This document shows, piece after piece, positions 1,730 through 18,619 of a stretch of 35,889 bases of DNA (its first letter is position 1; the number at the start of each line of letters is the position of its first letter). Position numbers and translations under genes: made by a program. Below the pieces are notes generated by a model, which saw only the letters and a list, made by a program, of their open reading frames with translations, made no database searches and was not told the DNA's origin. The stretch comes from Fidelibacterota bacterium. Its GTDB lineage: Bacteria > Pseudomonadota > Alphaproteobacteria > Rhodospirillales > Rhodospirillaceae. The stretch lies in NCBI GenBank assembly GCA_947476065.1, contig CANJPG010000030.1:1-35889 (forward strand), given 5' to 3'.

Positions 1730-1952
1730 AGTGATTCCCTGGATCGCCGCGGCGGTCTTCATCGCCATGTACTTCGGCCTGATGCTGGGGGCCGCCACCA
1801 ACAAGGCCCTGTTTACGGAACCGGCCTTCGACGGTGGCGTAGTCTCGGTGGGCCTGTTGCTGGGTGTAGCCATGAACGTGGGCACATTGCTGCTGGTCGG
1901 CGGCTACATCGTCTATCTCAACCACCGCTCGGCCGCGCAGGATGGCCTGTGA
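1722..1952 (+). CDS. Small two-helix membrane protein (DUF485/YjcH-like)
   Basis: This 76-residue protein has two hydrophobic segments, about residues 5-25 and 40-65, and a short polar tail. AGGAG lies just upstream, and its ATG overlaps the stop of the MmgE/PrpD gene. Its stop overlaps the ATG of the symporter gene (TGATG). A small DUF485 membrane protein (YjcH) directly before actP is a known arrangement, and size, topology and position all fit. The sequence match to DUF485 is loose, so the name rests mainly on context. It may help assemble or tune the symporter; that is inference. Confidence 0.75.
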   Translation: MHKVIPWIAAAVFIAMYFGLMLGAATNKALFTEPAFDGGVVSVGLLLGVAMNVGTLLLVGGYIVYLNHRSAAQDGL

Positions 1953-3433
1953 TGAACACCTCCGTCGTCCTCATCTTTGTCGCCTTCATCGCGGCCACCC
2001 TTGGCATCACCGCCTGGGCCTCGCGCCGCAGCCAGTCGCGCAAGGCCTATTACACCGCCGGCGGACAGATCACCGGCACGCAAAATGGTTTGGCCCTGGC
2101 CGGCGACTTCCTCTCCGCCGCCGCGTTCCTCGGCGTGCCGGGCCTCTACTTCGCCGCCGGCTTCGATGGCTTCATCTATGGCCTGGGCACGTTCGTCGGC
2201 TGGCCCATCATGCTGTTCCTGACCGCCGGCAAGCTGCGCTCGCTGGGCCGCTACACGCTGACGGATGTCTTGGCCGTGCGTCTCAAGGAAACGCCCATCC
2301 GCATCTTCGCCGCCAGCGCCAACCTCATCGTGCTGCTGTTCTACATGGTGGCACAAATGGTTGGCGGCGGTGCGCTGCTCAAACTGCTGCTGGGCCTCGA
2401 CTTCACCTATGCCGCCATGCTCGTGGGTGTGTTGATGATCGTCTACGTCGTTTTTGGCGGCATGTTGGCCACCACCTGGGTGCAGATCGTCAAGGCGACG
2501 CTGCTGATTTCCACCGCCCTCACCCTGGCCGGCCTCGTGCTCATCGCCTTTGACTTTAATCTCGGCGCCTTATTCCAAGCCGCCATCGACAAACATCCGG
2601 CGGGGGCCGCCATCATGGGCCCCGGCAACTTGATCACCAGTCCGCTGGGTGCGTTCTCCCTGGCGCTGACTTCGGCGCTAGGTACGACGGGATTGCCCCA
2701 CGTGATGATGCGCTTCTTCACCGTGCCCAATGCCAAGGAGGCCAACTATTCGGCCTTCATCGCGACGGCCTTGGGTGGTGGCTTTTGTCTGGTGATGATC
2801 ATCGTCGGCTTCGGCACAATCGCGCTGCTCAGCGGCAACCCCGACTACACCACCGGCCCCGCGCAGCTCAAGGGCGGCGGCAACCTGGCGTCGCTGTATC
2901 TTGCCGACGCCCTGGGCGGAAACCTGTTCCTCGGCTTTGTCGCCGCCGTAGCCTTCAGCACCATCCTCGCGGTGGTCTCGGGCCTGACGCTCGCCGCCGC
3001 CGCGACGGTCTCCCACGACCTCTACGCCAGCGTCATCAAGAAGGGCGCGCAAACCGAACGCGAAGAACTGTGGATCAGCCGCAGCGCCGCCGCGGTCTTC
3101 GGCGTCTGCGGGGTGGGATTGAGCCTGGTGTTCCAGCATTTGAACGTGAACATCCTGGCACTCTTCGCCACATCAGTCGCCGCGAGCGCCCTGTTCCCGC
3201 TGTTGATCCTGGCGCTCTACTGGAAACCCTTGTCCACCGCGGGTGCGCTGGCCGGCGGCGGCACGGGATTGGTGGGTGCCATCACCTGCCTGATCCTCGG
3301 CCCCGATGTATGGGTGGCATTGCTGGGCCACGCCGCGCCGATCTTCCCGGTGCAATACCCGACGGTGCTGGCAATGCCGTTCGCGTTTGTAATGGCCTTC
3401 GCGGTGTCGCTGGCCGTGCCGGATAAGAAGTGA
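1952..3433 (+). CDS. actP: Sodium:solute symporter, ActP-like (acetate/monocarboxylate uptake)
   Basis: A 493-residue inner-membrane transporter of the SSS family with about 13 hydrophobic segments. The run AGDFLSAAAFLG, the segment DGFIYGLGTFVGWPIMLF, LGRYTLTDVLAVRLK and VFGGMLATTWVQIVKA closely follow the Na+/acetate symporter ActP. It is shorter than E. coli ActP (549 residues), mostly in loops and at the C-terminus. An in-frame GTG sits one codon earlier at 1949; ATG 1952, overlapping the previous stop, is the conventional choice. As third gene of the operon it probably imports the acid handled by the MmgE/PrpD protein. Substrate may be acetate, propionate or another short acid. Confidence 0.85.
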   Translation: MNTSVVLIFVAFIAATLGITAWASRRSQSRKAYYTAGGQITGTQNGLALAGDFLSAAAFLGVPGLYFAAGFDGFIYGLGTFVGWPIMLFLTAGKLRSLGRYTLTDVLAVRLKETPIRIFAASANLIVLLFYMVAQMVGGGALLKLLLGLDFTYAAMLVGVLMIVYVVFGGMLATTWVQIVKATLLISTALTLAGLVLIAFDFNLGALFQAAIDKHPAGAAIMGPGNLITSPLGAFSLALTSALGTTGLPHVMMRFFTVPNAKEANYSAFIATALGGGFCLVMIIVGFGTIALLSGNPDYTTGPAQLKGGGNLASLYLADALGGNLFLGFVAAVAFSTILAVVSGLTLAAAATVSHDLYASVIKKGAQTEREELWISRSAAAVFGVCGVGLSLVFQHLNVNILALFATSVAASALFPLLILALYWKPLSTAGALAGGGTGLVGAITCLILGPDVWVALLGHAAPIFPVQYPTVLAMPFAFVMAFAVSLAVPDKK

Positions 3434-3443
3434 GCGCCGAAAG

Positions 3444-3719
3444 TTAGTCCGCCGCATCGCGTTTCAGGGCTGCGTCCAACGCCTGCGGATCGACCCAAAC
3501 GCGTTCGCTGGAACCCAGCGGCGCGCTGGGATCGGTGAGATCGATCCAGGCGGCGGTGCGGCGGTAGGCGAGGAACGAGAGCTCCTCGACCGGTTGTTCA
3601 TCGAACTCGACCGAATAGCTGCCGGCCGGCTGGGGCTCGCTGATGCCCGGCAGCCGGAACGGTTTGCGGAATTCCACTTGGGTACGCGTCGTGCGCGGAA
3701 TGATCGATGAGGTATTCAT
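3444..3719 (-). CDS. Conserved hypothetical protein, 91 residues
   Basis: The product is soluble and mixed in charge, with no signal peptide. The pattern VEFRKPFRLPG, PAGSYSVEFDEQ, LSFLAYRRTAAWIDL looks like small uncharacterised alphaproteobacterial proteins predicted to be beta-rich, but I know of no function. It is the last gene of a leftward four-gene cluster and starts four bases after the stop of the gene before it. It converges with the symporter gene, ten bases away. Confidence 0.7.
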   Translation of the reverse strand: MNTSSIIPRTTRTQVEFRKPFRLPGISEPQPAGSYSVEFDEQPVEELSFLAYRRTAAWIDLTDPSAPLGSSERVWVDPQALDAALKRDAAD

Positions 3720-3723
3720 GCGC

Positions 3724-4461
3724 TCAATCGATCTTGATGCGCGGATGGGTGGCGCAGCCGGTGGCGGCGTTCCACGCGTCGGCGTCGTTACCCAGCGCCG
3801 GCACGGCGAAGGCCAGCTGGAAGCCGTCGCGGGTGCCCTCGAACGTGATCGTCAGGCCCGAAGCGGCATCGATCACCTGAGGCTTGGCGTCGGCGTGGAT
3901 GGTGACTTTGAACTTGGCCGACAGATCGGCGATCAGCGCCGTTTCCGACTTCGAGCCCGGCGTCACCTTGAAGGCGCGGGTGATGCGCGCCACGCCCAAA
4001 TGCGGCGGTCCATACACGGCAACTGCGGCGAAGGTGACCGAGGTCAGGTGGCCGCTTTCCGAGGTGAATAGCGCGCCCAGTGGCCCGACGGCGGCGCAGA
4101 CTTTACCGGCGGCCAGCAGGATTGGCAGCGTGTGTGCATCGAGCAGCAGCGCGCCGTCGGCGGCAGCGTAGGCGGCGAGCGTGGCGCGGGCCTCGGGCGA
4201 CAGGTCGGGCAGAGCGGCTTCGAGCTGGGCGATGTCGGCCTTGGTAGGCGCGCGCTTGGGTGCGGCGACCCGCGACAGATCGCGCAGCACGACATTGGCG
4301 AGGACCGACGGCGGATCGCCGGGGCAGATGTCGGAGAAACAATAAAGCCGTGCGGGCGGGGCCTCGTTTGCCAAAGTGTGCGCGGCAAAAGCAGCGCTCA
4401 GGCTAAGGCCGGCCAGAGCCAGCGCATATGCCGCGAGGCGGGTGCGGCCCGCTGGCGTCAT
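3724..4461 (-). CDS. Hypothetical exported or membrane-anchored protein
   Basis: A 245-residue protein with an N-terminal hydrophobic segment (about residues 9-28) followed by AAHTLANEAPPA, fitting a signal peptide or anchor. Two cysteines follow in YCFSDICPGDPP near residue 40, and two more occur at about 120 and 236. The rest is an Ala-rich alpha/beta sequence that I do not recognise. Its start overlaps the stop of the upstream gene by four bases, so the two are translationally coupled. Confidence 0.7.
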   Translation of the reverse strand: MTPAGRTRLAAYALALAGLSLSAAFAAHTLANEAPPARLYCFSDICPGDPPSVLANVVLRDLSRVAAPKRAPTKADIAQLEAALPDLSPEARATLAAYAAADGALLLDAHTLPILLAAGKVCAAVGPLGALFTSESGHLTSVTFAAVAVYGPPHLGVARITRAFKVTPGSKSETALIADLSAKFKVTIHADAKPQVIDAASGLTITFEGTRDGFQLAFAVPALGNDADAWNAATGCATHPRIKID

Positions 4462-4685
4462 ACGGTGCGGGTTTCGTTGGTCAGATCGCGCAGCACGTTG
4501 TGGATGCGCTCGGCGGCCTTGGCATGGCGTTCGCCGCCGTAGCCGTCCAACGCCAATTCGATCTCGCGCAGCCAGTGCAGGCGGTTGCCTTCCGGCTGGT
4601 CGAGCATCGAGGTCCGCATCAAGACGGCGAGGTCTGCCTCGTCGCTGGTGTCGGCGGCCGTCAAGAAATCGCGGGTGGTTTTCAT
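4458..4685 (-). CDS. Hypothetical small acidic protein, 75 residues
   Basis: The start is set at ATG 4685 because GGAG lies just upstream; the open frame extends further but without a better signal. The product is helical and charged (RTSMLDQPEGNRLHWLREIELALDG is typical in composition), with no membrane segment. I recognise no domain. It overlaps the following exported-protein gene by four bases and lies 38 bases after the zinc-ribbon-like gene, so it belongs to the same unknown operon. Confidence 0.65.
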   Translation of the reverse strand: MKTTRDFLTAADTSDEADLAVLMRTSMLDQPEGNRLHWLREIELALDGYGGERHAKAAERIHNVLRDLTNETRTV

Positions 4686-4723
4686 GGTGACTCCGTTGGA
4701 CGGGTAAAGGCGGCGCCGCAGGC

Positions 4724-5047
4724 TCAGCGGGCCTGGCGCCATCCCGGGCGCGACAGATCGGTGGAGTTGATCATCGTGATCCCGCAGGTTTTGCAGACGA
4801 ATGAGGTATCGGCGGTGCCGCGGCTGCTGTCGCGTCCGCTAACCTGCGCGACGGCATTGGCGACAAGGGCTGCATGGGGACGCTCGCCGCGCCCCTTGCA
4901 CAGCTGCAGCTGGCAGGCCTTGCAGCGCACGCCGCTCTGCAGCGCGCTCACGGGTACCGTGCTGATCGCGGTGTCGGGTACGGGCAGGGCCATCTCGAGC
5001 GCCTTATCCAGATTGGTCTTCTCAACCAGGGCAATTGTCCGGCGCAT
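4724..5047 (-). CDS. Hypothetical protein with two CxxC-type motifs
   Basis: The product has 107 residues. It contains CKACQLQLC near the middle and CKTCG near the C-terminus, giving a possible zinc-ribbon or other metal site. ATG 5047 is preferred over ATG 5059 because GGGAG is well spaced only for the inner one. First gene of the leftward four-gene cluster (5047 to 3444). No annotated family recognised. Metal binding is inferred only from cysteine spacing. Confidence 0.65.
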   Translation of the reverse strand: MRRTIALVEKTNLDKALEMALPVPDTAISTVPVSALQSGVRCKACQLQLCKGRGERPHAALVANAVAQVSGRDSSRGTADTSFVCKTCGITMINSTDLSRPGWRQAR

Positions 5048-5166
5048 TCTGTCTCCCATAGCAGCGTGTCACAAAAAAAACGGCGCTCGCTCCGCGGGGA
5101 AGCAAACTGGCGTTGGTGGCTTGGTGGAATGCGCCGGATAAGCAGCGCGGCAGCGTCGTCGCGGGC

Positions 5167-5217
5167 GCTAGGTCTTGGCGAAAGCTAGGTCGTGGCGAAG
5201 GCTACTTCTTAGCGAAT
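5167..5217. repeat. Three tandem copies of a 17-bp unit
   Basis: Copies at 5167-5183, 5184-5200 and 5201-5217 follow the pattern GCTAGGTCTTGGCGAA plus one base. Copies 1 and 2 differ at two positions; copy 3 is more diverged. Copy 3 contains the last codons and the stop of the small Lys-rich gene on the reverse strand. Since 17 is not a multiple of three, extra copies beyond the stop do not continue the reading frame. Confidence 0.85.
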
Positions 5218-5336
5218 GGCTGTGCGGTGCTTTTGCCGGTCATGCTCTTGGCGTATTCGGATTGTCCGCCGCCGGCCGTCTTGGCCTGCTTGGGCTTTTT
5301 TTTCTCGCGCCCTTTCTTTTCCTGGCCTTTGGCCAT
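5202..5336 (-). CDS. Small Lys-rich basic protein, 44 residues
   Basis: ATG 5336 is preceded by AGGAG at good spacing. The product is very basic and low in complexity (MAKGQEKKGREKKKPKQAK, then a Gly/Ser-rich tail ending in PFAKK), so it is probably unstructured in isolation. Short Lys-rich proteins of this sort are common in alphaproteobacteria and have no assigned role; nucleic-acid binding is a guess. The stop codon lies inside the third copy of a 17-bp tandem repeat. Confidence 0.6.
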   Translation of the reverse strand: MAKGQEKKGREKKKPKQAKTAGGGQSEYAKSMTGKSTAQPFAKK

Positions 5337-5553
5337 CGGCGTCTCCTGATAAGAGGGGCTGCGTGCGACGATGCGTCGCGCCACGCTGGATGCGGCATCC
5401 ACTAGGCGCTCTTTCACCCCCTAAGTCCAGGGTATTCGCCCTCTGCGATCGGTCTGGCGGCGCGGTTTCGGGCAGCGTGCCGTGCACACCGTCTTCGCCG
5501 CGTCACGTCTACGTATAAATCCGGACCAGCTACGAATTTCTACCCGCGAGTTT

Positions 5554-7710
5554 CTATCCCCTGATGACCTTCACGATCGCCGTGGCCAACGATTTGCCGT
5601 CGTAGGGTTTGCGCACCACGGGCACGGCTGCCAGGGCCTTGGGGATCATCGTGCTATCGCCGTAGCCGGTGGCGAAGATGAACGGAATGCGCCGGCTGAG
5701 CAGTTCCTGGGCAACGGGCAGCGAGTTTTCCGCACCCAGGTTGACGTCGAGCACAGCCACATCGGGCGCGAACTTTTCCAGCTCGCGCAGGGCCTCGGCG
5801 CAGGTGGCGGTGGATTCAACGCGCGCCACGCCCTCGGCGGCCAGCATCTGTTCGACGTCGATCGCGATCAGCAGCTGATCCTCGAGCAGGAGCACGGTCA
5901 GGCCGGCCAGATGCTGCATGTCAGGGGCGGCGCGCATCGCCTGTTCGGCGGCCTGGTCGGTGTGCGGCGTGGAATGGCGCACGAAGCGCGGCGGGATGAC
6001 AAAATGCGCCGTCACGCCCGTGGGCGAAAAAGCGACGCTGCTTTCGCCGCCCAGGTCGAAGCGCACGCTGCGCGCCACCAGAACCGAACCGAAGCCCTTG
6101 CGCACCGGCTCCACCACCGTCGGCCCGCCGTTCTCCTGCCAGTCGATCTCGCAGCCCAGCTCGGGCGAGTACTGCCAACGCACGCTCAGATGCGCCGCCG
6201 ACACCGAAAGCGCGCCGTACTTGGCGGCATTGGTGACCAGCTCGTGCAGCACCAGAGCCATCACCGAATAGGCGCGGGCATCTAGCGTCAGCGTCGGGCC
6301 TTCCAGCGTGATGATTGCATTGGCGCCGCGATAGGGCGACAGCTCGGCGTTGAGCAGGTCCAAAAGCGAGCCGCCGCCGTCGCCGCGCGTCACCTGGTCG
6401 TGGGCGAAGGCCAAAGCCTGGATGCGGCCCGTGAGTGTGTTGCCGTAGTCTTCCAGCGAGCGGTCCGCGTCCACCGGATGGCTGACCAGCGACTTGATCA
6501 AGGACAGGATGTTCTTGACGCGGTGATTGAGCTCTTCATTGAGCATCTTCTGGCGCAGCTCGCCCTTGCTGCGCTCATCAGCCAGCACTTCGTTGTGGCG
6601 CAGCACCACCTCGACCAGCGTGGTCTTGGCGGCGGCGGCGATGTCGTGGTCCACCGCGGTCCAGGGGTTCGACTGGCGTTCGACCTCCTGCTTCCACAGG
6701 GCAAAGCTTTTACGCGGCGTCAGCCGGTCGCCGTGGGCGCCGACGTCGTAGGACTTGTCGGGATTGCCCGCCCACGCCACCGTCTGCACCACCTCGCGGC
6801 GGAAGAACAACAGATAGTCGCGCGGCGCATGCGACAGCGGTATGGCCAGCACGCCGGCGGCGTCGGCACGATATTGCTCGGCGCCCGCCAGCGCTTCGGA
6901 CAACGTATGCGTCGACCAGATGTCGCCCCGGCCGCCTTGGCTGCGCGCGTGGAGCTTGATCATGGCGACCAGCGCTGGGATCGCCTTGGTCGGCGGCACC
7001 GCGCCGTGCGACATCCAAGCGCCGTTCAGCCAGATTCCTATGCCGTCGCAGGGCATCAGCGCGGCGAAAGCCTGAATGTTCTCGCGCAGCAGCATGCCGA
7101 TATCGGTATAAGCGGCGGCGTTGCGCAGCATGGTGTCCAAGGCATTGCGCGCTTTGGTGGCGGATTCCAGTTTGCGCTGATGCTGCAGCGATTCCAGGTG
7201 CAGCGAGAAAAACTCGCCGAACATCTCCGCCGCCACGCGCTGGGACATGCTCAGCGCTTTCGGCACATAGTGATGGCACGCGACCAGGCCCCACAATTTA
7301 CCGCCGACGATGATCGAGATCGACATGGAAGCGGCGACGCCCATGTTGCGCAGGTATTCACAGTGGATCGGCGAAACGCTGCGCAAATGCGCAAACGACA
7401 GATCCAGCGGCTTGCCGCCCGCGCCCAGTTCCGGCTGCAAGGCCACACGCGCGCCGCCGCTGTCGGAAATCACTCGGATGGTATTTTTGAGATACAACAG
7501 CCGCGCCTGCTGCGGAATGTCGCTGGCCGGAAAGTGCAGGCCGAAAAAGGTCTCGAGGTCCGGGCGGCGGCTTTCGGACACCACTTGGCCTGCGCCATCG
7601 GCGTCGAACTGATAGATCATGACCCGATCATATGCGAAGGCGCCGCGCAGGATGCGTGCGCCCTCGTCCATCAGCTTCTGTTCCTCGGTCACTTTGGTAA
7701 TGCGCGACAC
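5554..7710 (-). CDS. bphP: Bacteriophytochrome, GAF-PHY-HWE kinase-receiver part (3' section of a split bphP)
   Basis: These 718 residues hold the GAF domain with YDRVMIYQFD, the PASDIP motif (61-66) and the HCEYLRNMGV helix (116-125), the PHY domain with the PRKSF tongue motif (332-336), an HWE/HisKA_2 kinase with phospho-acceptor His396 in ELNHRVKN, its ATPase domain, and a C-terminal receiver with VLDVNLG and KPY. The reading frame is continuous with the upstream PAS segment except for one TAG at 7720-7722. The GTG at 7710, twelve bases after that TAG, is the first plausible restart but has no clear ribosome-binding site. Without the PAS domain this part lacks the biliverdin cysteine. Apart from the TAG, the gene looks intact. 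Confidence 0.9.
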   Translation of the reverse strand: MSRITKVTEEQKLMDEGARILRGAFAYDRVMIYQFDADGAGQVVSESRRPDLETFFGLHFPASDIPQQARLLYLKNTIRVISDSGGARVALQPELGAGGKPLDLSFAHLRSVSPIHCEYLRNMGVAASMSISIIVGGKLWGLVACHHYVPKALSMSQRVAAEMFGEFFSLHLESLQHQRKLESATKARNALDTMLRNAAAYTDIGMLLRENIQAFAALMPCDGIGIWLNGAWMSHGAVPPTKAIPALVAMIKLHARSQGGRGDIWSTHTLSEALAGAEQYRADAAGVLAIPLSHAPRDYLLFFRREVVQTVAWAGNPDKSYDVGAHGDRLTPRKSFALWKQEVERQSNPWTAVDHDIAAAAKTTLVEVVLRHNEVLADERSKGELRQKMLNEELNHRVKNILSLIKSLVSHPVDADRSLEDYGNTLTGRIQALAFAHDQVTRGDGGGSLLDLLNAELSPYRGANAIITLEGPTLTLDARAYSVMALVLHELVTNAAKYGALSVSAAHLSVRWQYSPELGCEIDWQENGGPTVVEPVRKGFGSVLVARSVRFDLGGESSVAFSPTGVTAHFVIPPRFVRHSTPHTDQAAEQAMRAAPDMQHLAGLTVLLLEDQLLIAIDVEQMLAAEGVARVESTATCAEALRELEKFAPDVAVLDVNLGAENSLPVAQELLSRRIPFIFATGYGDSTMIPKALAAVPVVRKPYDGKSLATAIVKVIRG

Positions 7711-7719
7711 CAGGAAGCG

Positions 7720-8112
7720 CTAAATCTCCATCGGCGTCTGTGCGCTGGCCATGCTTGGCTCGAACTCGAGGATGGTGCTGTCCTGATATTGATGCACGGC
7801 GACGTCGAAGGCCCGCCCGCCCGCGAGCGTCAGGCCCAGGATCAGGCCGGGCCTTGCCGGGTCGGTGGCGCGGAACAGGGCGTTGCGGATGTCGTGCACC
7901 GCGGTGCGGCCCAGGGTGTCGTCGAGGGTGTCGCCGGCCTGGACCGGCCTGCCCAGCAGTTCGGTCGCGTTGGCCGAACAGCGCGACACGGTGTCGAGTT
8001 TGGGGGCTGTCTCTATCAGCCAACCGTGCGCCTGAATGCTGCCGGGGATGTGAATCGGTTCGCGGTCGCAGTTGGTAAGATCGACGGCGGCGTGAATGGG
8101 GACTTCGGCCAT
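7720..8112 (-). CDS. bphP: Bacteriophytochrome PAS domain (5' section of bphP, ended by in-frame TAG)
   Basis: The 130-residue product is the N-terminal PAS domain of a biliverdin phytochrome. Cys15 in TNCDREPIHIPGSIQAHG is the expected chromophore-attachment residue. Translation stops at TAG 7720-7722, in the linker where the GAF domain should follow. The next codons continue in the same frame into GAF, so codon 131 of an 852-residue phytochrome has become a stop. It could be a recent nonsense mutation, a sequencing error or a read-through site. The gene begins ten bases after the bphO stop, an operon typical of phytochrome and chromophore supply. Confidence 0.9.
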   Translation of the reverse strand: MAEVPIHAAVDLTNCDREPIHIPGSIQAHGWLIETAPKLDTVSRCSANATELLGRPVQAGDTLDDTLGRTAVHDIRNALFRATDPARPGLILGLTLAGGRAFDVAVHQYQDSTILEFEPSMASAQTPMEI

Positions 8113-8122
8113 TAAGCGTGCG

Positions 8123-8764
8123 CTACTCCGCTGCGAGGCGCGGCGCGGCCCAGGTCACGCTGGATGGGTTGTGCGCGGCCGGCACGCGATCAGCTTCCAC
8201 GCGGTCACCCTCCACGCGGGCCATGGCGTATTCGGCTGCATACAACACCGTATTGCAGACGCGGATGGTGCGTTCGATATCCGCCCCTTCGGCGTCTTGC
8301 GCGTCTTCGAGGATCTCGGTCAGGCGTTTCCAGTTGCGAAGCGCCGCCACCTGTTCCAGCAAGTGCCGCGCGCCGCTGCTGCCGGAAAGTCCTAAGGGTT
8401 GCACGCTGCGGACCAGCACCTGCGCCTCGAGGGTCGCGCCTTCCAGCACATAGGCCACGCCCAGGAAGTCGGCGGTGGTCTGCAAGCGGGGCGGCTGATC
8501 GTCGTACATGCATGGCGACAGGCCAAGCTCGGCTAGATCGGCGGCGATGTGATGGCACAGAAAGGTCGGACGCCATGCGCCAAACAGCTTGGGCCATGTG
8601 GCGCCGCGCAGCGCACTCTCGACGGGCGCGCGGAAGGCGAACAGCCCCTGCAAGTAGCGCCCGTAGCTCGCACGGCATGCGACGGCGCCGACAGCGGCCT
8701 CCAGCGACGTATGCGCTTCGGCGGTTCGGCTTCTAAGCAGAAGGCGCAGACTGAGGTGATTCAT
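8123..8764 (-). CDS. bphO: Biliverdin-producing heme oxygenase
   Basis: This 213-residue protein has the bacterial heme oxygenase pattern: RSRTAEAHTSLE near the N-terminus, with His18 as probable proximal heme ligand, FLCHHIAADLAELG in the middle and YVLEGATLEAQVL, matching the conserved YVLEGS-type helix. It opens heme to biliverdin, CO and iron, supplying the chromophore for the adjacent phytochrome. Unusually, no Shine-Dalgarno sequence precedes ATG 8764; a run of nine C residues on the coding strand lies there instead. The frame has no other start before an upstream stop. Confidence 0.9.
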   Translation of the reverse strand: MNHLSLRLLLRSRTAEAHTSLEAAVGAVACRASYGRYLQGLFAFRAPVESALRGATWPKLFGAWRPTFLCHHIAADLAELGLSPCMYDDQPPRLQTTADFLGVAYVLEGATLEAQVLVRSVQPLGLSGSSGARHLLEQVAALRNWKRLTEILEDAQDAEGADIERTIRVCNTVLYAAEYAMARVEGDRVEADRVPAAHNPSSVTWAAPRLAAE

Positions 8765-8766
8765 GC

Positions 8767-8784
8767 GGGGGGGGGTATGGGGGG
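8767..8784. repeat. G9 and G6 homopolymer tracts before bphO
   Basis: Nine G at 8767-8775 and six G at 8779-8784 on the top strand, which read as C tracts in the bphO leader two bases from its ATG. The tract occupies the place where the ribosome-binding site would be. Length change by slippage could alter leader structure but not the reading frame. Confidence 0.6.
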
Positions 8785-8835
8785 CTCGCCAAAGGTCGGG
8801 GAAGGTAATGGGACCGCGTTACAGCCTCTACGTCC

Positions 8836-8855
8836 AGCAAGAAACTTGCTTTTTT
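8836..8855 (+). terminator. Small hairpin with T tract
   Basis: AGCAAG-AAA-CTTGCT followed by a run of six T, reading on the top strand. The stem is short. No rightward gene ends just upstream, so what it would stop is unclear; it may insulate the promoter motif at 8860. Confidence 0.45.
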
Positions 8856-8859
8856 GTCG

Positions 8860-8884
8860 GGAACAAAATCGCCGGGGCGCCGTT
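8860..8884 (+). promoter_or_regulatory. EcfG-type (general stress sigma) promoter motif
   Basis: GGAAC at 8860-8864, a 16-base spacer and CGTT at 8881-8884 match the alphaproteobacterial EcfG consensus exactly. It points right, while all nearby protein genes point left. The expected transcript starts near 8891 and meets the hairpin at 8920-8964. Confidence 0.55.
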
Positions 8885-8890
8885 TACACC

Positions 8891-8968
8891 GCCCCCATTG
8901 CCTTCATGCGCTCCACCAAAAAGCGGCCAGGCGTCAGTGCCCAAAGCACTGTCCTGGCCGCTTTGTTG
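8891..8968 (+). ncRNA. Candidate stress-induced small RNA
   Basis: Position is inferred from an exact EcfG-type promoter motif upstream and a strong hairpin at 8920-8964. The predicted RNA is about 75-80 bases with a C-rich, probably single-stranded 5' part (ACCGCCCCCATTG), followed by the terminator-like stem. No open reading frame of note lies in it. GsrN of Caulobacter is a known EcfG-class-controlled small RNA with a C-rich loop, but I claim no homology. The T tract after the hairpin is weak in this direction. Confidence 0.35.
8918..8968. terminator. Strong two-part hairpin, probable terminator of the leftward gene
   Basis: A 12-bp outer stem (AAAGCGGCCAGG at 8920-8931 with CCTGGCCGCTTT at 8953-8964), a small bulge and a 6-bp inner stem (CAGTGC/GCACTG). 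On the reverse strand it is followed by TTTTTGG and lies 12 bases past the stop of the gene at 8981-9334, so it fits a factor-independent terminator. Rightward it could also end the candidate small RNA. Confidence 0.8.
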
Positions 8969-8980
8969 TGGTCTTAAGGC

Positions 8981-9334
8981 CTAGTTGCGGTAGGGGTTGT
9001 TCGGACGGCTATCGAAGCGGTTGGGAACGCCGTCGCCGTCACGGTCGCGGTCGTAGCGGTCCGGGGTGCCGTCGCGGTCTTCATCGCGGTACATGCCGCG
9101 GTAGCGGTCGCGATAACGTTCACGGAACATGCGGGCCTCGCGGGCGCTGCGCCATGAATGCCAGTAGCCGCGATGATCGTAGTAGCCGTCGCGATAGCCC
9201 ATGCGCACGTTGCCGCTATCGAAGCTGAAGGCGAAGCTCTGCGCCATAGCCGGCGCGCTCGGCACTGTGACAATCGGAACCGCGACGATCGCGCCGATCA
9301 ACGCAGCAGCCGCCAGTAGGTATTGTTTTTTCAT
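8981..9334 (-). CDS. Secreted Asp/Arg-rich protein with calcium-type repeats
   Basis: A 117-residue protein with a clear signal peptide (residues 1 to about 31, ending PAMAQS). The mature part is Tyr/Arg-rich, then DEDRDGTPDRYDRDRDGDGV, like thrombospondin type-3 or EF-hand-like calcium loops, ending in NPYRN. AAAGGAG lies well placed before ATG 9334. A strong terminator follows the stop. Calcium binding outside the cytoplasm is inferred from the Asp pattern only; the function is unknown. Confidence 0.75.
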   Translation of the reverse strand: MKKQYLLAAAALIGAIVAVPIVTVPSAPAMAQSFAFSFDSGNVRMGYRDGYYDHRGYWHSWRSAREARMFRERYRDRYRGMYRDEDRDGTPDRYDRDRDGDGVPNRFDSRPNNPYRN

Positions 9335-9530
9335 GACTACACTCCTTTGCTTGTTAGGCAGTCTGTAGTCATTAAACGGCGCGTACTGGGATTTGTTCTT
9401 GACGGTTTTTGATTCTTATGAGCCGCCGCCACAATCCCGCCGCGATGTTTTTATGCTTTGTTTATGCGGCTAACTCGCACAAGGCGGCGTGCGCCGCACT
9501 GTGCACGCTGGGGGAATGAGGCCGGGCGGG

Positions 9531-9899
9531 CTACGGCTCAGCTATAACTTTCGCCCGCCACTGGGCCCGCTTCCATTCCATAAGCCGGCACAATCCTGTG
9601 CGCAGCTTTTCCATGTGGCGCAGGTTGAGGCGCTGGTAGACCGCCGCAATGATCACAGCGTCGAGCACGGCGCGTTCCTTGGCGAGGTAAGCGCTGGCGG
9701 ATTTCAGGTTGGCTTCGGCGGCTTCCGTGTCCACCGCGGTGGAAGCTCCGGGCATGAAGCGCCCGAGCGTGCCTTGCGTGAAGGTCTTGGGATGCACCAG
9801 TACCCACCAGCCGGCGAACATGATGCCGGCATCGTGCATGCGTTTGGCCTGGGTGTAGTCGCCGTGCAGATAGCCCTGCCACAGCAGCACGCCAAGCAC
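9531..9899 (-). CDS. Hypothetical protein, possibly truncated at its N-terminus
   Basis: Open from GTG 9899, 122 residues. There is no ATG and no convincing ribosome-binding site, and protein-like sequence (GWPEPDLAATAT) continues in frame upstream until a TGA at 9948-9950. It contains weakly hydrophobic stretches (VLGVLLW, AGIMFAGWWVLV) and a basic helical C-terminus. It may be the remnant of a longer gene, or a real gene with a weak start. No family recognised. Confidence 0.4.
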   Translation of the reverse strand: MLGVLLWQGYLHGDYTQAKRMHDAGIMFAGWWVLVHPKTFTQGTLGRFMPGASTAVDTEAAEANLKSASAYLAKERAVLDAVIIAAVYQRLNLRHMEKLRTGLCRLMEWKRAQWRAKVIAEP

Positions 9900-10055
9900 A
9901 GTTGCCGTGGCGGCGAGATCGGGCTCCGGCCAGCCGGCCTCGGGCCTTCAGGATTGTTTCACCGAGGGCTTCCACGCCGCCGAGAGCACGGTGAAGGACG
10001 CAGGCGGCGAGCCCGTCACCCGCCGCCGGGAACTGCCCTCAGGGGCGTCGGCGCC

Positions 10056-10601
10056 TTAGCCCGCGAGACCGCCGCCGAAGATAACGTCTGCGTCCGCGAA
10101 CTCTTTGTCGGGCAGGTTGATCAGCTCGGTTTTGCGCGCCAGCAGTTGCTTGCCGAGGACCGAGAGGTCAAAGCCCGCCTCGCGTACCTTGGTAAACAGG
10201 GACCGCTCTTCGTCGGCGATGTGATGACGCACATATTCGCCCAGCACCTTGACGTCGGCGTCGTATTCGATGCTGCCCGGCATGCCGGTCTCGATGTCGG
10301 CGATCAGCACCTTCAGCACGTTCTGCTCGACGCGCGCTTCGGCCACCAGGGACAGCGCATCGGCGATGCGGTCCTCGATGGCGGGGTAGAAGATTTCCTC
10401 TTCCATGATGGCGTGGGTCTTGAGAGCTCGGCACAAAATTTCGGCCAGTTCCTGCTTACGCCCCGGCAGGAAACGGTCACGGCCGAACTCATAAAGCTTA
10501 AACAGCGCCTCCAGCTCCTTGTGCTCGTTGTGCAGGAGCTCGAGGGCATCGGGCACTCTGTCGGCGGCCGTGTCAGGGGTTGGCGACGTTTGCGTGTGCA
10601 T
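10056..10601 (-). CDS. Hemerythrin-domain protein (copy 1)
   Basis: The 181-residue product carries the His/Glu ligands of a hemerythrin HHE fold: LLHNEHKELEALF, HAIMEEEIFYPAI, VEQNVLKVLI and HHIADEERSLF. Such proteins hold a di-iron centre and bind oxygen or act in oxygen, NO or iron sensing and repair. ATG 10601 has AAGGGAG just upstream. The C-terminus ends DVIFGGGLAG, nearly the same as the second copy at 12808-13347. A perfect FNR/FixK-type palindrome lies 54-67 bases upstream of the ATG, suggesting control by low oxygen. Confidence 0.85.
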   Translation of the reverse strand: MHTQTSPTPDTAADRVPDALELLHNEHKELEALFKLYEFGRDRFLPGRKQELAEILCRALKTHAIMEEEIFYPAIEDRIADALSLVAEARVEQNVLKVLIADIETGMPGSIEYDADVKVLGEYVRHHIADEERSLFTKVREAGFDLSVLGKQLLARKTELINLPDKEFADADVIFGGGLAG

Positions 10602-10654
10602 GGTGGTCTCCCTTATTGGCGGCCAAAAAGGTTGCATGCGGCCGGGGCCCGGCA

Positions 10655-10668
10655 TTGACGCCGGTCAA
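10655..10668 (-). promoter_or_regulatory. FNR/FixK-type palindrome upstream of hemerythrin 1
   Basis: TTGAC-GCCG-GTCAA is a perfect 14-bp palindrome matching the CRP/FNR superfamily core TTGA-N6-TCAA. Its centre is about 60 bases before the hemerythrin start codon, which allows a class-II position at -41.5 if transcription starts near 10620. Confidence 0.6.
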
Positions 10669-10761
10669 GGCACGGCAGGCGGGCCCAGCGCAATTAAACC
10701 GCGACAAGGCTTCAGCTTTAGGCCAGGGTGGCCGTCTTGCCTTCGTCCGGCACTATTTCGC

Positions 10762-10786
10762 CGAACAATTCCCCCGCCAGAACGTT
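10762..10786 (+). promoter_or_regulatory. Near-consensus EcfG-type promoter for the receiver/kinase operon
   Basis: CGAAC at 10762-10766, 16 bases, then CGTT at 10783-10786. It differs from GGAAC-N16-CGTT at one base. It lies 85 bases before the response regulator ATG and points the same way, so it may place the operon under general stress control. Confidence 0.4.
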
Positions 10787-10870
10787 GGAGGGAGAGAGCT
10801 ATACCGCCCCGCGCGCCCCTTCCCCTTGATACAACAGCTAAATCGCCGCGCTCCGGCAAAAAGTAGCCCC

Positions 10871-11236
10871 ATGGCCATCATTCTGATCGTCGAAGACGAC
10901 ATTTTCATCCGCGGCCTCGCGGAGATGATGATCCAGGATTGGGGGCACCAGACGCTGCTCGCCAGCGATGTTGACGAGGCCCTCGTGCTGCTGCGGAGTC
11001 CCGTCAAGATCGATGGGCTGTTCACCGACATCTACCTGAAGGCCGCGGTACTTGGGGGATGCGATGTCGCCCGCGCCGCCGTAGCGCTGCGCCCAGGACT
11101 GCGCGTACTTTATACCACCGGCAACACCGTCACCGAGAATATGAAATCGCTGTTTGTTGACGGCAAACACGTCCTGCGCAAACCGTACACGGAAACTCAG
11201 CTTCAGCATTCTGTTGAAAGCATGCTCGCCGCGTAG
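10871..11236 (+). CDS. Single-domain response regulator
   Basis: A stand-alone receiver of 121 residues: acidic pair Glu8/Asp9-Asp10, phospho-acceptor Asp53 in LFTDIYL, Thr in YTTGN and Lys in LRKPY. There is no output domain, so it probably relays phosphate or binds a partner. ATG 10871 is chosen because the receiver fold starts there; the frame is open further left without family support. It lies 11 bases before the HWE kinase gene, its probable partner. Confidence 0.85.
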   Translation: MAIILIVEDDIFIRGLAEMMIQDWGHQTLLASDVDEALVLLRSPVKIDGLFTDIYLKAAVLGGCDVARAAVALRPGLRVLYTTGNTVTENMKSLFVDGKHVLRKPYTETQLQHSVESMLAA

Positions 11237-11247
11237 GGAAAGTTGCC

Positions 11248-12642
11248 ATGTCCATCGTGATTGCCAGTGAGATCGTCGAAACGGTGCCGAGCGCCCTGAT
11301 CATTCTCGACCGCGCGCTGAACATCACCTCGGCCAACCGCGCCTTCTACCAGATCTTCCGCACCAGCCCGGCCGAGACCGTCGGCTGCAACATCTTCGAG
11401 CTGGGCAACCGGCAGTGGGACATTCCGGCGCTGCGCACGCTGCTCGAGCGCGTGATCCCGGAAAAAAACGCCGTCGAGCGCTTCGAGATGGAGCACAACT
11501 TCCCCAACATCGGCCGGCGCACCATGCTGGTGAACGCGCGCAAGATCCTGCGCCCCGGCGAGCTTGACGGCGGCATCGTGCTGGCCATCGAGGACGTCAG
11601 CATCGAACGCGCCGCCCAGGCCGAGAGCGAGCGCGCCTGGCAGCTGACGCAAAGCATCGTCGACACCATCCGCGATCCCCTGGTGGTGCTCGAGCACGAC
11701 ATGACCATAGTCATGGCCAGCAGGGCCTTCCTGACGATCTTCGGCATCACCGAGGCCGCCGCGCGCGGGCGGCACCTGTCGGAGCTGGGCCAGCATCAAT
11801 GGGACGTGCCGGCCTTGCGCTTTTTGATGGAAAAGGTGCTGCCCGAGAACAAGCCCATCGAGAGCTTCGAGATCGAGGACGATTTTTCCGGTTTAGGCAG
11901 ACGCGTGTTCAACTTGAACGCCCGTAAGATCTCGCAGCCCGGCAACCACGTACATCGCATGCTGCTGGTGTTCGAGGACATCACCGACCGCAAGCAGCGC
12001 GAGCGCGACGCCGAGATGCTGACCAACGAGATTTCTCACCGCATCAAGAACAACCTGCAGATCATCGTCGGCCTCATCGGCTTTGAAGCCAAAACAGCCG
12101 CAGAAACCGGCACGCAAGGCTACAAGGCCATGCAGGCGCGCATCAGCGCCATCGCCGAGCTTTACGACCTGATCTCCCACTCGAAACGCGGCGGCACCAT
12201 CACCGCCGACACCTATCTCAAGGGCATCGCCAAGACCATGTCGGCGACGCTGCTGGGCAGCGAGTCCGGGATTGCCATCGACGTCGATGCCGAACCCATA
12301 GACATCGATCCCAACCGAGCTGTGCCCTTGGGCCTGCTGATCAACGAGCTGGCCACCAACGCCATCAAACACGCCTTCCCCGGCGGCCGGGGGCGCGTCG
12401 TGCTCAGCCTCAAGCAGGACGGTGTGGATATCGTGCTCACCGTCACCGACAACGGTATCGGGATAAGGGATCAGGACGCCGCAAAACTGCCCGAACGGCG
12501 CGGCTTCAACTACGTCACCATCTTCGCCCGTCAGTTGGGGGGCACCATCATTCCGCAGCCCGTCGGCGACAAAGGCACGACTGTGAAAGTCCTGCTGCCG
12601 CACCTGGCCGCCCCCACCGGAATCGTGCGCTCGGCGGCGTAA
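11248..12642 (+). CDS. PAS-PAS-HWE/HisKA_2 sensor histidine kinase
   Basis: The 464-residue cytosolic kinase has two PAS domains (about 5-118 and 132-248) that resemble each other closely: ELGNRQWDIPALRTLLERV in the first matches ELGQHQWDVPALRFLMEKV in the second. The phospho-acceptor is His264 in EISHRIKNNLQ, and the ATPase domain has NELATNAIKHAFPGG and DNGIGI. No membrane segment, so it senses an internal signal. This kinase type often feeds the alphaproteobacterial general stress pathway. Paired with the receiver just upstream and flanked by two hemerythrin genes. Confidence 0.9.
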   Translation: MSIVIASEIVETVPSALIILDRALNITSANRAFYQIFRTSPAETVGCNIFELGNRQWDIPALRTLLERVIPEKNAVERFEMEHNFPNIGRRTMLVNARKILRPGELDGGIVLAIEDVSIERAAQAESERAWQLTQSIVDTIRDPLVVLEHDMTIVMASRAFLTIFGITEAAARGRHLSELGQHQWDVPALRFLMEKVLPENKPIESFEIEDDFSGLGRRVFNLNARKISQPGNHVHRMLLVFEDITDRKQRERDAEMLTNEISHRIKNNLQIIVGLIGFEAKTAAETGTQGYKAMQARISAIAELYDLISHSKRGGTITADTYLKGIAKTMSATLLGSESGIAIDVDAEPIDIDPNRAVPLGLLINELATNAIKHAFPGGRGRVVLSLKQDGVDIVLTVTDNGIGIRDQDAAKLPERRGFNYVTIFARQLGGTIIPQPVGDKGTTVKVLLPHLAAPTGIVRSAA

Positions 12643-12807
12643 GCCCTTAATCGGCGTTTGCGGTCGCCTTAGCCCCTGGCTGCGCACCCACGCGGCACCG
12701 GGACTGTCCGATATCCCTCTCCCCGCCTATCTATTGCAGGGTATCCAATGGGTCGGAGGGGGTGCGTTGTGACGGCATCCTTGCCTTTGGCGATGCGCGA
12801 CCGTGGT

Positions 12808-13347
12808 TTACCCCGCCAGGGCACCGCCGAAGATCATGTCCGCCTTATCATTCTTCCGCGCGAGCATCTCGGCGCCAAGTGACTTCAGGTCCATGCCGGA
12901 CTTGCGCACCTTGGGAAACAGCTCGGTTTCTTCTTCGTCCACATGGTGGCTGATGTATTCGCCCAGCACCTTGACGTTTGCGTCATATTCATCGCTGCCC
13001 GGCGAACCGCCTGTGACATCGTCGATCAGGCGCTTGCAGGAATTGTGCTCGACCTTGGCTTCGGCCAACAGGTCTTCGGCGCCGTCGACCTCTTCGGCCA
13101 CCGCCGGATAGAACAGTTCTTCCTCGATTTTCATATGCACCGTGAGGGCATCGCAGATGTCGCCGGCGATCTTGGTCTTGCGGGCGTCGCTCAGCTTGTC
13201 CTTGCCGGCTTCATACTGGCGGAACATGGCGGTGGCCTCTTTGTGATCGGTCTTCAACAGCGTGATGGCGTCGGTGCTGGATTTGCTCTGGGCGCGTTTG
13301 GCCGGCGCGGATTTGGCTTTGGATGCGGATTTCGGTTTGGTTTTCAT
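12808..13347 (-). CDS. Hemerythrin-domain protein with Lys/Ala-rich N-terminal tail (copy 2)
   Basis: A 179-residue protein. Residues 1 to about 26 form a basic Lys/Ala/Ser tail like a histone H1 tail; the rest is a hemerythrin domain with LLKTDHKEATAMF, HMKIEEELFYPAV and HHVDEEETELF. It ends DMIFGGALAG, matching copy 1. ATG 13347 has AGGA upstream; an in-frame start at 13368 is possible. The tail may bind DNA or RNA, which would be unusual for a hemerythrin; this is inference. It converges with the PAS-PAS kinase gene. Confidence 0.85.
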   Translation of the reverse strand: MKTKPKSASKAKSAPAKRAQSKSSTDAITLLKTDHKEATAMFRQYEAGKDKLSDARKTKIAGDICDALTVHMKIEEELFYPAVAEEVDGAEDLLAEAKVEHNSCKRLIDDVTGGSPGSDEYDANVKVLGEYISHHVDEEETELFPKVRKSGMDLKSLGAEMLARKNDKADMIFGGALAG

Positions 13348-13431
13348 CGGGACATTCCTGGTGCGCACGTGAAGAGAGCACCGCTCCCTCCGCCTCGCGG
13401 CAGAGAGAGCGATACGCGGGGCGTCGAGCAG

Positions 13432-13785
13432 TTACGACTGCTGCTTATTATTGGCAGTCTTGTCGCTGCTTTTATCGCCGCTCTTGTCGGCAGTCTTGTC
13501 GCGAGCGCCCGAGGCGTCGGCCGGACGCGTGCCGTGCTGGGCCTGATCATTCTGGCCTTTCTGGCTCTGCTGGTCGTTGTCCTGGCTGTTGCCTAATTGG
13601 CCGGCCTTGCCGTTCTGCTGATCGGCATGCTGATCAGAACCGGTCTTCGGTGCAGACTGGGACTGCTGGCCGGATTTGTCCTGGCCGGCCTTGTCGGATT
13701 GGATGTTCTGCTGGCCGGGTTTGGACTTGTTCAGGTCGTGGCCCGAGGTGTCAGCACCGGTTTTGTTTTGAGTTTTCTCGTTCAT
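13432..13785 (-). CDS. Hydrophilic, probably disordered Gln/Lys/Asp-rich protein
   Basis: The product has 117 residues made mainly of Gln, Lys, Asp, Ser, Gly, Asn and Thr, with repeated patterns such as SDKAGQDKSGQQ, DQQSQKGQND and DKSGDKSSDKT. No hydrophobic core is visible. AGGAG lies before ATG 13785. Composition resembles hydrophilins and desiccation or stress proteins, but no family signature was recognised. It lies 84 bases upstream of hemerythrin copy 2 on the same strand and may be co-transcribed. Confidence 0.7.
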   Translation of the reverse strand: MNEKTQNKTGADTSGHDLNKSKPGQQNIQSDKAGQDKSGQQSQSAPKTGSDQHADQQNGKAGQLGNSQDNDQQSQKGQNDQAQHGTRPADASGARDKTADKSGDKSSDKTANNKQQS

Positions 13786-14023
13786 AACATCTCTCCTATT
13801 GGTGAAATGATGCAGCGCCCGAAAGCCCTGCGAGGCAATGTGCCCACCTGTCCAACGCGAAAAATCCAAAATGGTTAGATTGCGAAGCCGTCATGATCGG
13901 TTTTATTTGGGCTTTATCAGATACGTGCGATCAGCTAGGTGCGCTGAACCTTTCGAACGCATCCAACCCGCGCGCGAGGCGCGCATTGAGATCATGAACA
14001 GCGCGGAAAGCGCGTATTCTGCG

Positions 14024-14056
14024 TTGACGGCATTTCTATTTCTATTATTCTAGAAA
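14024..14056 (+). promoter_or_regulatory. arsR promoter and probable ArsR operator
   Basis: TTGACG (14024-14029), a 16-base spacer and TATTCT (14046-14051) make a sigma-70-like promoter whose start would fall at or next to the arsR ATG at 14058, implying a leaderless mRNA. TTTCTA-TTATTC-TAGAAA (14039-14056) is an inverted repeat covering the -10, a usual place for an ArsR site. Confidence 0.5.
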
Positions 14057-14057
14057 C

Positions 14058-15040: not shown

Positions 15041-15465
15041 ACATCGTCATTCACCACAACCCCGACTGCGGCACCTCGCGCAATGTCGTCGAGATTGTCA
15101 GGGCCGCCGGCTACGACCCGGTCATCATCGAATATTTGAAAGAGGGCTGGACGCGTGGCCAGCTGCTGGGCCTGTTCGCGGCCGCCAGCCTGACGCCGCG
15201 CGCGGCCTTGCGCGAAAGCAAATCACCGGCGCGGGAGTTGGGGCTGCTGGAGCCGGGCGTCAGCGATGAACGCATTCTCGCGGCCATGTGCGCTGTGCCG
15301 ATTTTGGTGAACCGGCCCATCGTCTGCAGCGCGCGCGGCGTGCGCCTGTGCCGGCCCAGTGAAACGGTGTTGGACCTTTTGGATCGCCTGCCGCCGGGGC
15401 CCTTCGCCAAGGAAGACGGGGCGCTGCTGATCGACGCCAATGGACAGCGCGTGATGGGTGACTAG
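15037..15465 (+). CDS. arsC: Arsenate reductase, glutaredoxin type
   Basis: The 142-residue product starts with HHNPDCGTSRN, where Cys11 is the catalytic cysteine of the ArsC/Spx family, and has LLVNRPIV-type sequence (PILVNRPIVCSARGVRLCRP) forming the oxyanion site. It reduces arsenate to arsenite with glutathione and glutaredoxin. AAGGAGG lies just upstream. Its TAG stop lies in a CTAG that also provides the TAG of the convergent kinase gene. Confidence 0.92.
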   Translation: MNIVIHHNPDCGTSRNVVEIVRAAGYDPVIIEYLKEGWTRGQLLGLFAAASLTPRAALRESKSPARELGLLEPGVSDERILAAMCAVPILVNRPIVCSARGVRLCRPSETVLDLLDRLPPGPFAKEDGALLIDANGQRVMGD

Positions 15466-15776
15466 AGTCCGAGGGCCGCGGCGGCGCCCGGTGTTCCCGG
15501 AACCCGGATGGTCCAGACGGTGCCGTGCTTCGCGTCGACCGTCAGCGTGCCGCGCACCTGCTGGATGAGGCGGCGTACGAGGCCAAGCCCCCGCCGTTTG
15601 GTTTCGATCTGCGGCGCGAAGCCGATGCCGTTGTCGCTGACCACGATGGTCGCCATGTCGTCGACCCCGGCGCCCACTTTGACCGAGACGTTGGTAGAAC
15701 CCTTGCCGTCGGGAAAGGCATGGTCGAAGCTGTTGGTCACCAGCTCGGCGACGACAATGCCCAGCGCGGTCACCAC
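15462..15776 (-). CDS. GAF-HWE kinase, ATPase-domain part (3' section of a split gene)
   Basis: Open from GTG 15776, this 104-residue segment holds the HATPase_c domain: ALGIVVAELVTNSFDHAFPDG (N-box), DNGIGF (G1) and RRGLGLVRRLIQQVRG. It is in the same frame as the upstream GAF and dimerisation part; only a TAG at 15816-15818 separates them. There is no clear ribosome-binding site for the GTG. Alone it could bind ATP but not sense a signal. It most likely belongs to one 394-residue kinase. Confidence 0.85.
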   Translation of the reverse strand: MVTALGIVVAELVTNSFDHAFPDGKGSTNVSVKVGAGVDDMATIVVSDNGIGFAPQIETKRRGLGLVRRLIQQVRGTLTVDAKHGTVWTIRVPGTPGAAAALGL

Positions 15777-15815
15777 ATCCAGATCCAGCAGAACCTCCTC
15801 GCTGTCGCAGGTCAG

Positions 15816-16646
15816 CTAAAGGCCGGGCGACGTTTCGATCTCGGACAGGCTGCGGCAAAGCGACTGCACATAGCCGCCAAAATCGGTGATGCGTGTCATT
15901 TCGCTGCCGAGCAGGTGGTCATAGACGTCGGCCACGTTACGCACACGGCGGACGATGGCTTTGATGCCGCGCATGGCGGCCTCGTCCTGGGTATCGTGCA
16001 GCTGCTGGTTCAACATCGATGAGACCAGCTGGAGGTTGTTGCGCACGCGGTGCTGCAGCTCCTCGGCCAGGATTTTCTTCTGCTCCAGCAGCTTGTCCTT
16101 TTCGTCGACCGCTTTTTCCAGAAGCGCCACGCGCTCGGATGTGGCGACGGCTTCGGCCAGAACGTTGGCGAAGCTGGTGAGGAAGTTGACGTCGTGTTCG
16201 TCGTAGTTGCGCTGCGTATCGTTGTCGATTTCCAGCACACCGTAAGGATTGCCGTTGCCTTTGATCAGCACGTCTATGGTCGAGATAATGCCGTGAGCGG
16301 CGTAGAAGGCCGGCAACTCGAACTCGGTATCCGTGCGCAGGTCATTGCAGATCGAGGGTTTGCCGGTGGCGAAGGCGCGGCCCTGGGGCGAACTGTCGTC
16401 GGCGCGGACGACCTGGCCGATGACGCCCGCGCGCCAGCCGTAGCCGGCTTCGATGACCAGGTCATTATCGGCCTCGCGATAGCGGCAGATTTTGGAAAAC
16501 GGCACACCGAGGCCCTGGGCGCAAACCTTGGCCGCTTCGGTCAGGACGGTTAGAAGGTCGCCCTGGCTGAGGGCAAAACTGCCGAAGTGCGCAATGGCGC
16601 TTTGCTGGCGCAGGAGTCTCGCGACCTGGGCGGCAGCGTCATTCAT
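15816..16646 (-). CDS. GAF-HWE sensor kinase, GAF and dimerisation part (ended by in-frame TAG)
   Basis: The 276-residue product has a GAF domain (about 25-170) and a HisKA_2 dimerisation region with phospho-acceptor His199 in LQHRVRNNLQ. Translation ends at codon 277, TAG at 15816-15818, just where the ATPase domain should begin; the following codons continue in frame into that domain. The start overlaps the stop of the response regulator gene (ATGA), so the two are coupled. As read, the product lacks the ATP site and could not phosphorylate itself. Confidence 0.88.
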   Translation of the reverse strand: MNDAAAQVARLLRQQSAIAHFGSFALSQGDLLTVLTEAAKVCAQGLGVPFSKICRYREADNDLVIEAGYGWRAGVIGQVVRADDSSPQGRAFATGKPSICNDLRTDTEFELPAFYAAHGIISTIDVLIKGNGNPYGVLEIDNDTQRNYDEHDVNFLTSFANVLAEAVATSERVALLEKAVDEKDKLLEQKKILAEELQHRVRNNLQLVSSMLNQQLHDTQDEAAMRGIKAIVRRVRNVADVYDHLLGSEMTRITDFGGYVQSLCRSLSEIETSPGL

Positions 16647-18600: not shown

Positions 18601-18619
18601 GATGGTCTCCCCAGGTCCC

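Follow-up and report, generated by a model that had tools for sequence, protein, structure and literature searches.

The question raised by this locus is whether a single amber codon within a bacteriophytochrome gene marks a gene being lost, an error in the draft sequence, a codon that is read through, or a light sensor made in two pieces. In the window, which is the whole 35,889-nucleotide stretch of DNA that was analyzed, an in-frame TAG at 7722-7720 on the minus strand parts two stretches of one bacteriophytochrome gene frame. Upstream of this TAG lie 130 open codons that begin at ATG 8112 (7723..8112), and downstream the frame runs for 721 open codons to a final TAG at 5556-5554 (5554..7719). 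The gene comprises 852 codons when the interrupting TAG is read through, and apart from that codon the frame is open to its end.

Pfam searches with the read-through protein placed a PAS_2 domain upstream of the stop (residues 15-119) and GAF, PHY, HWE_HK, and Response_reg domains downstream, each over its Pfam cut-off. With the GAF match beginning at residue 145, amber codon 131 falls within the PAS-GAF linker. Cys15, in the PAS part, as well as PASDIP, PRKSF, the HWE histidine, and the receiver are all present; Cys15 is the bilin cysteine, and PASDIP and PRxSF are chromophore motifs of the family. An earlier sequence-only reading had described two parts in one reverse-strand frame, with TAG 7720-7722 alone between them and every one of these motifs intact. 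Translation and the domain matches bore this out, and the observation was right in every detail checked.

The best solved-structure match, 6g1y, is recorded as a bacteriophytochrome protein and aligned with residues 9-508 of the read-through protein (phmmer E 1.7e-179), its Ala129 opposite amber codon 131. We take this structure to be the photosensory module of Agp2 (AtBphP2) from Agrobacterium fabrum. The interrupted gene is an Agp2-type (HWE) bacteriophytochrome, with PAS-GAF-PHY, HWE kinase, and C-terminal receiver in one frame and, as in Agp2, a cysteine near the N-terminus. It differs from Agp2 in carrying an amber codon in place of Ala129 and in lying on a branch of its own, and under the standard code the TAG at codon 131 keeps it from being a single polypeptide as Agp2-type phytochromes are. 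PMC11021371 describes the HWE-plus-receiver layout in bathy phytochromes of Agrobacterium and Allorhizobium.

To place the stop in context, 84,980 species were scanned, which yielded 123 loci, and the best 80 of the 123 were kept. The read-through protein was 51-59% identical to these over nearly its whole length. Because it aligns near full length with the 80 loci and with Agp2 structures, the interrupted frame is more than a chance open frame. Alignment of relatives at codon 131, a check proposed in the sequence-only reading, gave a sense codon in all 80 relatives kept and a stop in none. The residue was Ala in 59, Ser in 11, Thr in 5, Met in 2, Val in 2, and Gly in 1, with Gln in none of the 80, and seven relatives have TCG, which is one substitution away from TAG. 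A conserved split was rejected, since none of the 80 loci has the break. The lone in-frame stop in a relative's alignment (locus L109) precedes the conserved protein start. As codon 131 tolerates several residues, a read-through product would probably fold.

The gene is rare among its nearest genomes. With the best three candidates scored per genome, 2 of the 317 genomes of the order had a match at E<=1e-120, as did 1 of the 19 from the genus; within the family, 1 of 73 genomes had a match at E<=1e-100. The other copy in the order (in genome G290) is 42% identical to the interrupted phytochrome. Without an E-value limit, all 19 genus members match, although outside the genome studied here (G000) these matches are partial, run from residue 350 onward, and cover mostly kinase and receiver; the longest, in G012, spans residues 350-847 at 33% identity. 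Among plasmid records, 113 matches reached E<=1e-50, each of them below 60% identity, and no near relative was found there. In a FastTree phylogeny, the interrupted phytochrome was sister to 78 of the 80 other sequences (support 0.87), with a terminal branch of 0.48, the longest among those listed. It forms its own branch, and the nearest relative among those compared is 60% identical. The gene likely originated in a rare acquisition.

We then compared conservation on the two sides of the stop, using as reference the G290 copy and 79 of the 80 loci, 80 sequences in all (L109 was left out because of the stop in its alignment), and defining near-invariant columns as those at least 97% conserved among them. 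The interrupted phytochrome was changed at 4 of 216 such columns, which ranked it 6th of 81, and the changes were distributed as 0 of 21 in PAS, 2 of 71 in GAF, 1 of 30 in PHY, 1 of 66 in the kinase part, and 0 of 28 in the receiver. Similarly isolated relatives (L038, L039, L040, L046, and L068) were changed at 3-9 of the 216 columns, and the remote G290 copy at 44. Because the changes are few, as in comparable relatives, purifying selection appears to have acted on both sides of the stop until very recently, or to be acting still. By itself, intact constraint makes no choice among a fresh lesion, a sequence error, and a functional gene, all of which it fits alike. The relaxed constraint or further lesions expected of a pseudogene are absent, which fits a pseudogene only if the loss was very recent. 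The frame-breaking lesion is private, with all 80 relatives lacking it, as is usual for young pseudogenes. Since the stop is private and both sides are constrained, the lesion, if real, would be recent.

Directly upstream of the phytochrome lies HO1 (8123..8764, minus strand), a heme oxygenase-like operon partner of 213 residues whose stop codon ends 10 nt before the phytochrome ATG. It matched Pfam Heme_oxygenase weakly (E 0.018), but in 37 of 81 loci a homologue (E<=1e-5) stands directly before the phytochrome gene. HO1 was changed at 6 of 35 near-invariant columns, the most among 38 sequences, while each of the 37 homologues was changed at 2 or fewer. One of its changes is at position 113, which is Glu in HO1 and Gly in all 37 homologues; in a motif alignment with human HO-1, this position would correspond to Gly143. 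The best identity of HO1 to its 37 homologues is about 45%, lower than many identities between homologues, and some of the surplus of changes in HO1 may reflect simple divergence or specialization. In PMC5623701, G143H is reported to abolish the activity of mouse and human HO1.

G000 also has a second heme oxygenase-phytochrome pair, on contig C34 (L156 3139-4341). The heme oxygenase of this pair is a good Pfam match (E 1e-16) and has Gly at the position equivalent to HO1 113. Its phytochrome breaks off within the PAS domain near residue 90, where the DNA enters the C-terminus of a DUF3422 gene, and this junction could be an assembly join. In the two pairs together, one phytochrome is cut, the other has a stop, and one of the two oxygenases looks impaired.

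The window contains a second amber-interrupted gene, which was absent from the sequence-only reading. A GAF-HisKA_2-HATPase sensor kinase at 15462..16646 (minus strand), identified by Pfam and by comparison with two congeners, has an in-frame TAG at 15816..15818 (codon 277), between its HisKA_2 and HATPase matches, and is otherwise open. Over the protein it is 75% identical to its counterpart in G017 and 74% to that in G015, which have Lys and Thr, respectively, at codon 277. The DNA comparison with congeners covered window bases 1-19,900. Many stretches of the compared region match congeners at 64-85% DNA identity, and a misbinned contig was rejected on this basis; the phytochrome operon had no congener match within it. 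No Rfam family matched the window at gathering thresholds.

To ask how common such interruptions are, we applied a codon-usage score to 1.775 Mb of the 3.26 Mb (54%) of G000 and, as comparison sets, to 0.46 Mb of G015 and 0.34 Mb of G017. The score picks out stops that are flanked on either side by coding signal in one frame. The first 1.247 Mb of G000 gave 65 candidates (33 TAG, 26 TAA, and 6 TGA), and the next 0.528 Mb gave 34 (15 TAA, 13 TAG, and 6 TGA). There were 25 candidates in G015 (14 TAA, 9 TAG, and 2 TGA) and 15 in G017 (8 TAA and 7 TAG). Most candidates were neighboring genes in one frame or shadow frames. In-frame neighboring gene pairs were dropped on inspection by eye, and the candidates at L164 18960, L163 8296, L183 3599, L207 7367 and 7646, L217 18149, L178 15965, L214 2178, L311 14532 and 16394, L330 2347, and window 20608 were likewise judged by eye to be ordinary gene ends or shadow frames.

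Of the 99 G000 candidates, 11 were accepted by eye as intragenic (9 TAG, 1 TAA, and 1 TGA), in ten genes. Independent support was obtained for three of them: the phytochrome TAG (window 7720, minus strand; 80 relatives), the kinase TAG (window 15816, minus strand; two congeners), and a TGA in a transposase (L251 481), which one Pfam domain spans. The other eight were called by reading alone. These comprise a TAG in an outer-membrane-like protein (L166 3510), a TAG in a small surface-antigen-like protein (L168 1792), two TAGs (2985 and 2607, with no other stop between) in a beta-propeller-like gene (L172 2433-3179, minus strand), a TAG in a hybrid kinase (L208 10733), a TAG in an FAD-oxidoreductase-like gene (L248 12580) that is truncated further downstream as well, a TAG in a UspA-like protein (L310 3071), and a TAA in a second hybrid kinase (L316 2455). 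Sensor kinases make up 4 of the 10 interrupted genes (L208, L316, window 15816, and window 7720).

Interrupted genes were also seen in congeners. A G015 glycosyltransferase (L238 11650-12447, minus strand) has TAG 12292 inside its Pfam domain, at a position that is Glu in a G000 homologue. Among the matches listed, two TonB receptors have a stop, in both cases TAG: G015:C2:196769-198079 (L302) and G005:C189:602-1945 (L301), each interrupted by a single in-frame TAG, with the rest of the examined part open. A G017 gene (L230 16478-17617, minus strand) has a TAG that is preceded in frame by a probable TAA within the gene. When stops were screened by homology with every open frame included, shadow frames dominated the output, and a cleaner repeat still returned mostly shadow-frame matches; the sites accepted from it, window 15816 and L238 12292, are both TAG.

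The second amber codon in the window, together with early surveys in which most stops were TAG, led us to pursue recoding of this codon; the larger sample then brought the TAA in L316 and the TGA in L251. Codon usage in the first 0.84 Mb sampled predicts that TAG should make up 54-60% of new nonsense codons. At that expectation, the probability of at least 9 TAG among 11 is 0.06-0.12, and of 9 among 10 without the transposase, 0.02-0.05. The congener cases, found in three genomes and gathered by different routes, number 4 TAG versus 1 TAA. Pooled with these, 13 of 16 stops are TAG (P 0.02-0.06 at 54-60% expectation and 0.009 at 0.49), or 13 of 17 when the TGA of a multiply broken G015 transposase (L197), left out of the pool, is counted. 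With its different routes and by-eye calls, the pool was not relied on, although it leans toward an excess of TAG.

TAG ends 155 of the 522 predicted genes (30%) in the first 0.84 Mb sampled, and the release factor 1 gene (prfA) is present (494 bits, over cut-off) as a 354-residue frame with GGQ. No CTA anticodon was found among the 33 typed of 34 tRNA matches in G000, a draft that lacks several expected tRNAs and in which the one untyped match is partial and at a contig end, nor among the 41 matches, all typed, of the congener G015, which is rated 100% complete. In G000, tRNA matches for Trp, Tyr, and Phe are among those missing despite a stated completeness of 99.76%. Recoding of TAG is not supported, as the codon is a common terminator, release factor 1 looks normal, and no CTA tRNA was found among those typed. 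We conclude that TAG serves as an ordinary stop in G000 and that the intragenic stops are most simply ordinary lesions or errors. The TAG count points slightly toward a weak UAG suppressor.

Which of the proposed explanations best accounts for the amber codon in the phytochrome? We consider it probable, with some reservation, that a recent nonsense mutation interrupted a rare, dispensable Agp2-type bacteriophytochrome gene, which is now being lost. The private in-frame stop, the diverged HO1, the truncated second phytochrome, and similar stops elsewhere in the genome point to loss, and it is mainly because both heme oxygenase-phytochrome pairs show damage that loss is preferred over a new arrangement. 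Against it, a phytochrome without a second stop or relaxed constraint would equally fit a functional gene. The sequence-only reading had listed recent nonsense mutation among its candidate explanations, and with the stop in 0 of 80 relatives, constraint intact, and HO1 and the second phytochrome looking degraded, it became the best supported of them. Sequencing or assembly error, in which the organism would have a sense codon at 7720-7722 and make a normal full-length phytochrome, is the less likely account and one we regard as doubtful. The genome is a 158-contig draft, the rest of the phytochrome gene is intact, and interrupted genes occur in other draft genomes of the genus as well. By our estimate, in which about 5% of substitutions create a stop, a substitution error rate near 1e-4 would be enough to account for 11 stops in ~550,000 codons, and we consider such a rate plausible for low-coverage draft sequence. 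However, random base errors leave the diverged HO1 and the cut second phytochrome unexplained, even if the latter could be an assembly join, and one beta-propeller gene has two TAGs. We infer that the bases at 7720-7722 are real and that phytochrome function has been lost.

Full-length phytochrome would still be made if the genus tolerated or partly decoded UAG, an explanation we consider improbable. It draws on the 9 TAGs among 11 intragenic stops, on the lower probability obtained without the transposase, on the further TAGs in three congeners, and on the sequence past the stops, which is still coding-like and is conserved where tested. Yet codon usage alone predicts a majority of TAG, two of the nine TAGs lie in one gene, TAG terminates many predicted genes in the presence of release factor 1, and neither G000 nor G015 yielded a CTA anticodon. 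The residues at the stop sites also differ in relatives, being Ala, Ser, Thr, and others at 7720, Lys or Thr at 15816, and Glu at the glycosyltransferase site. Read-through, which the sequence-only reading had also proposed, found little support, the TAG excess being weak at most. Still harder to credit is a two-piece phytochrome, in which termination-reinitiation would supply a GAF-PHY-kinase chain that joins a cysteine-bearing PAS chain to form a working sensor. Start codons do follow the TAG, GTG at 7708..7710 four codons on and ATG (Met148) at 7669..7671 seventeen codons on (both minus strand), which would yield products of 718 and 705 residues, respectively, and both halves look constrained. 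The stop also lies in the PAS-GAF linker, and near-infrared proteins engineered with a cut at this place still reconstitute when their halves are brought together (PMC5578081 and PMC4992171). That the break occurs in 0 of 80 relatives argues against this arrangement, as does the lack of a well-placed ribosome site at GTG 7710: the sole GGAG-like motif near it is a GGAG 15 nt upstream, a poor spacing. Judged by eye, restart would be better served by ATG 7671, which AGGA precedes by 10 nt, but this codon lies inside the GAF match, and its use would drop the first residues of that match. In the two engineering papers, each half is fused to one of two interacting partners, which join the halves; in addition, the native N-terminus threads through a loop of the GAF domain, and the partner heme oxygenase here has diverged. 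Some spontaneous assembly of the halves does occur, given the non-specific complementation background measured for split near-infrared proteins in PMC4992171. It seems just as remote that a natural split phytochrome reassembles around biliverdin made in trans by the C34 heme oxygenase. For the two-piece sensor restarting at GTG 7710 that the sequence-only reading had allowed for, we found no positive evidence.

Under the preferred explanation, recent loss, translation would end after the 130-residue PAS domain, which carries the biliverdin cysteine and lacks the bilin pocket. The GAF-PHY-kinase-receiver part would be made, if at all, by weak restart or leaky read-through, and red/far-red signaling would probably be off. 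Nonsense-interrupted bacterial genes are known in general as young pseudogenes, and the phytochrome resembles them in having one stop, a frame otherwise intact, and relatives without the stop; it differs in showing, so far, neither a second lesion nor relaxed constraint. The locus is most simply an ordinary loss of function in a genome with decaying light-sensor genes, rather than a new two-piece type of sensor, and it provides an example of phytochrome loss after rare acquisition.

The interruption also invites comparison with phytochromes divided or shortened in other ways. In PMC5578081 and PMC4992171, the chains of iSplit, IFP PCA, and miSplit are parted into PAS and GAF fragments, between the domains in iSplit and miSplit; these are engineered reporters joined by fused partners, whereas the break here is natural and private. 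Knotless phytochromes of the SynCph2 type (PMC8508867) are without PAS, as a GAF-PHY-kinase product would be, but here it is the missing PAS part that holds the bilin cysteine, and the relatives belong to the PAS-GAF-PHY class. A literature search in which most subscription journals were outside coverage listed no natural split or nonsense-broken bacteriophytochrome, and a search on premature stops in metagenome-assembled genomes returned nothing. Assembly of the two native pieces, if it took place, would provide a natural parallel to the engineered split reporters and a test of whether two chains can form the phytochrome knot. Likewise, UAG read as sense in the genus would be a case of natural amber tolerance, for which the evidence here falls short.

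Two further observations were made in passing. Comparison of G000 with two congeners turned up possible frameshifted gene pairs, namely L182/L258, L184/L176, L227/L242, L209/L222, and L307/L229. At the edge of the window, bases 1-149 are identical to G000:C84:11419-11567, and the window contig and C84 probably adjoin or share a repeat.
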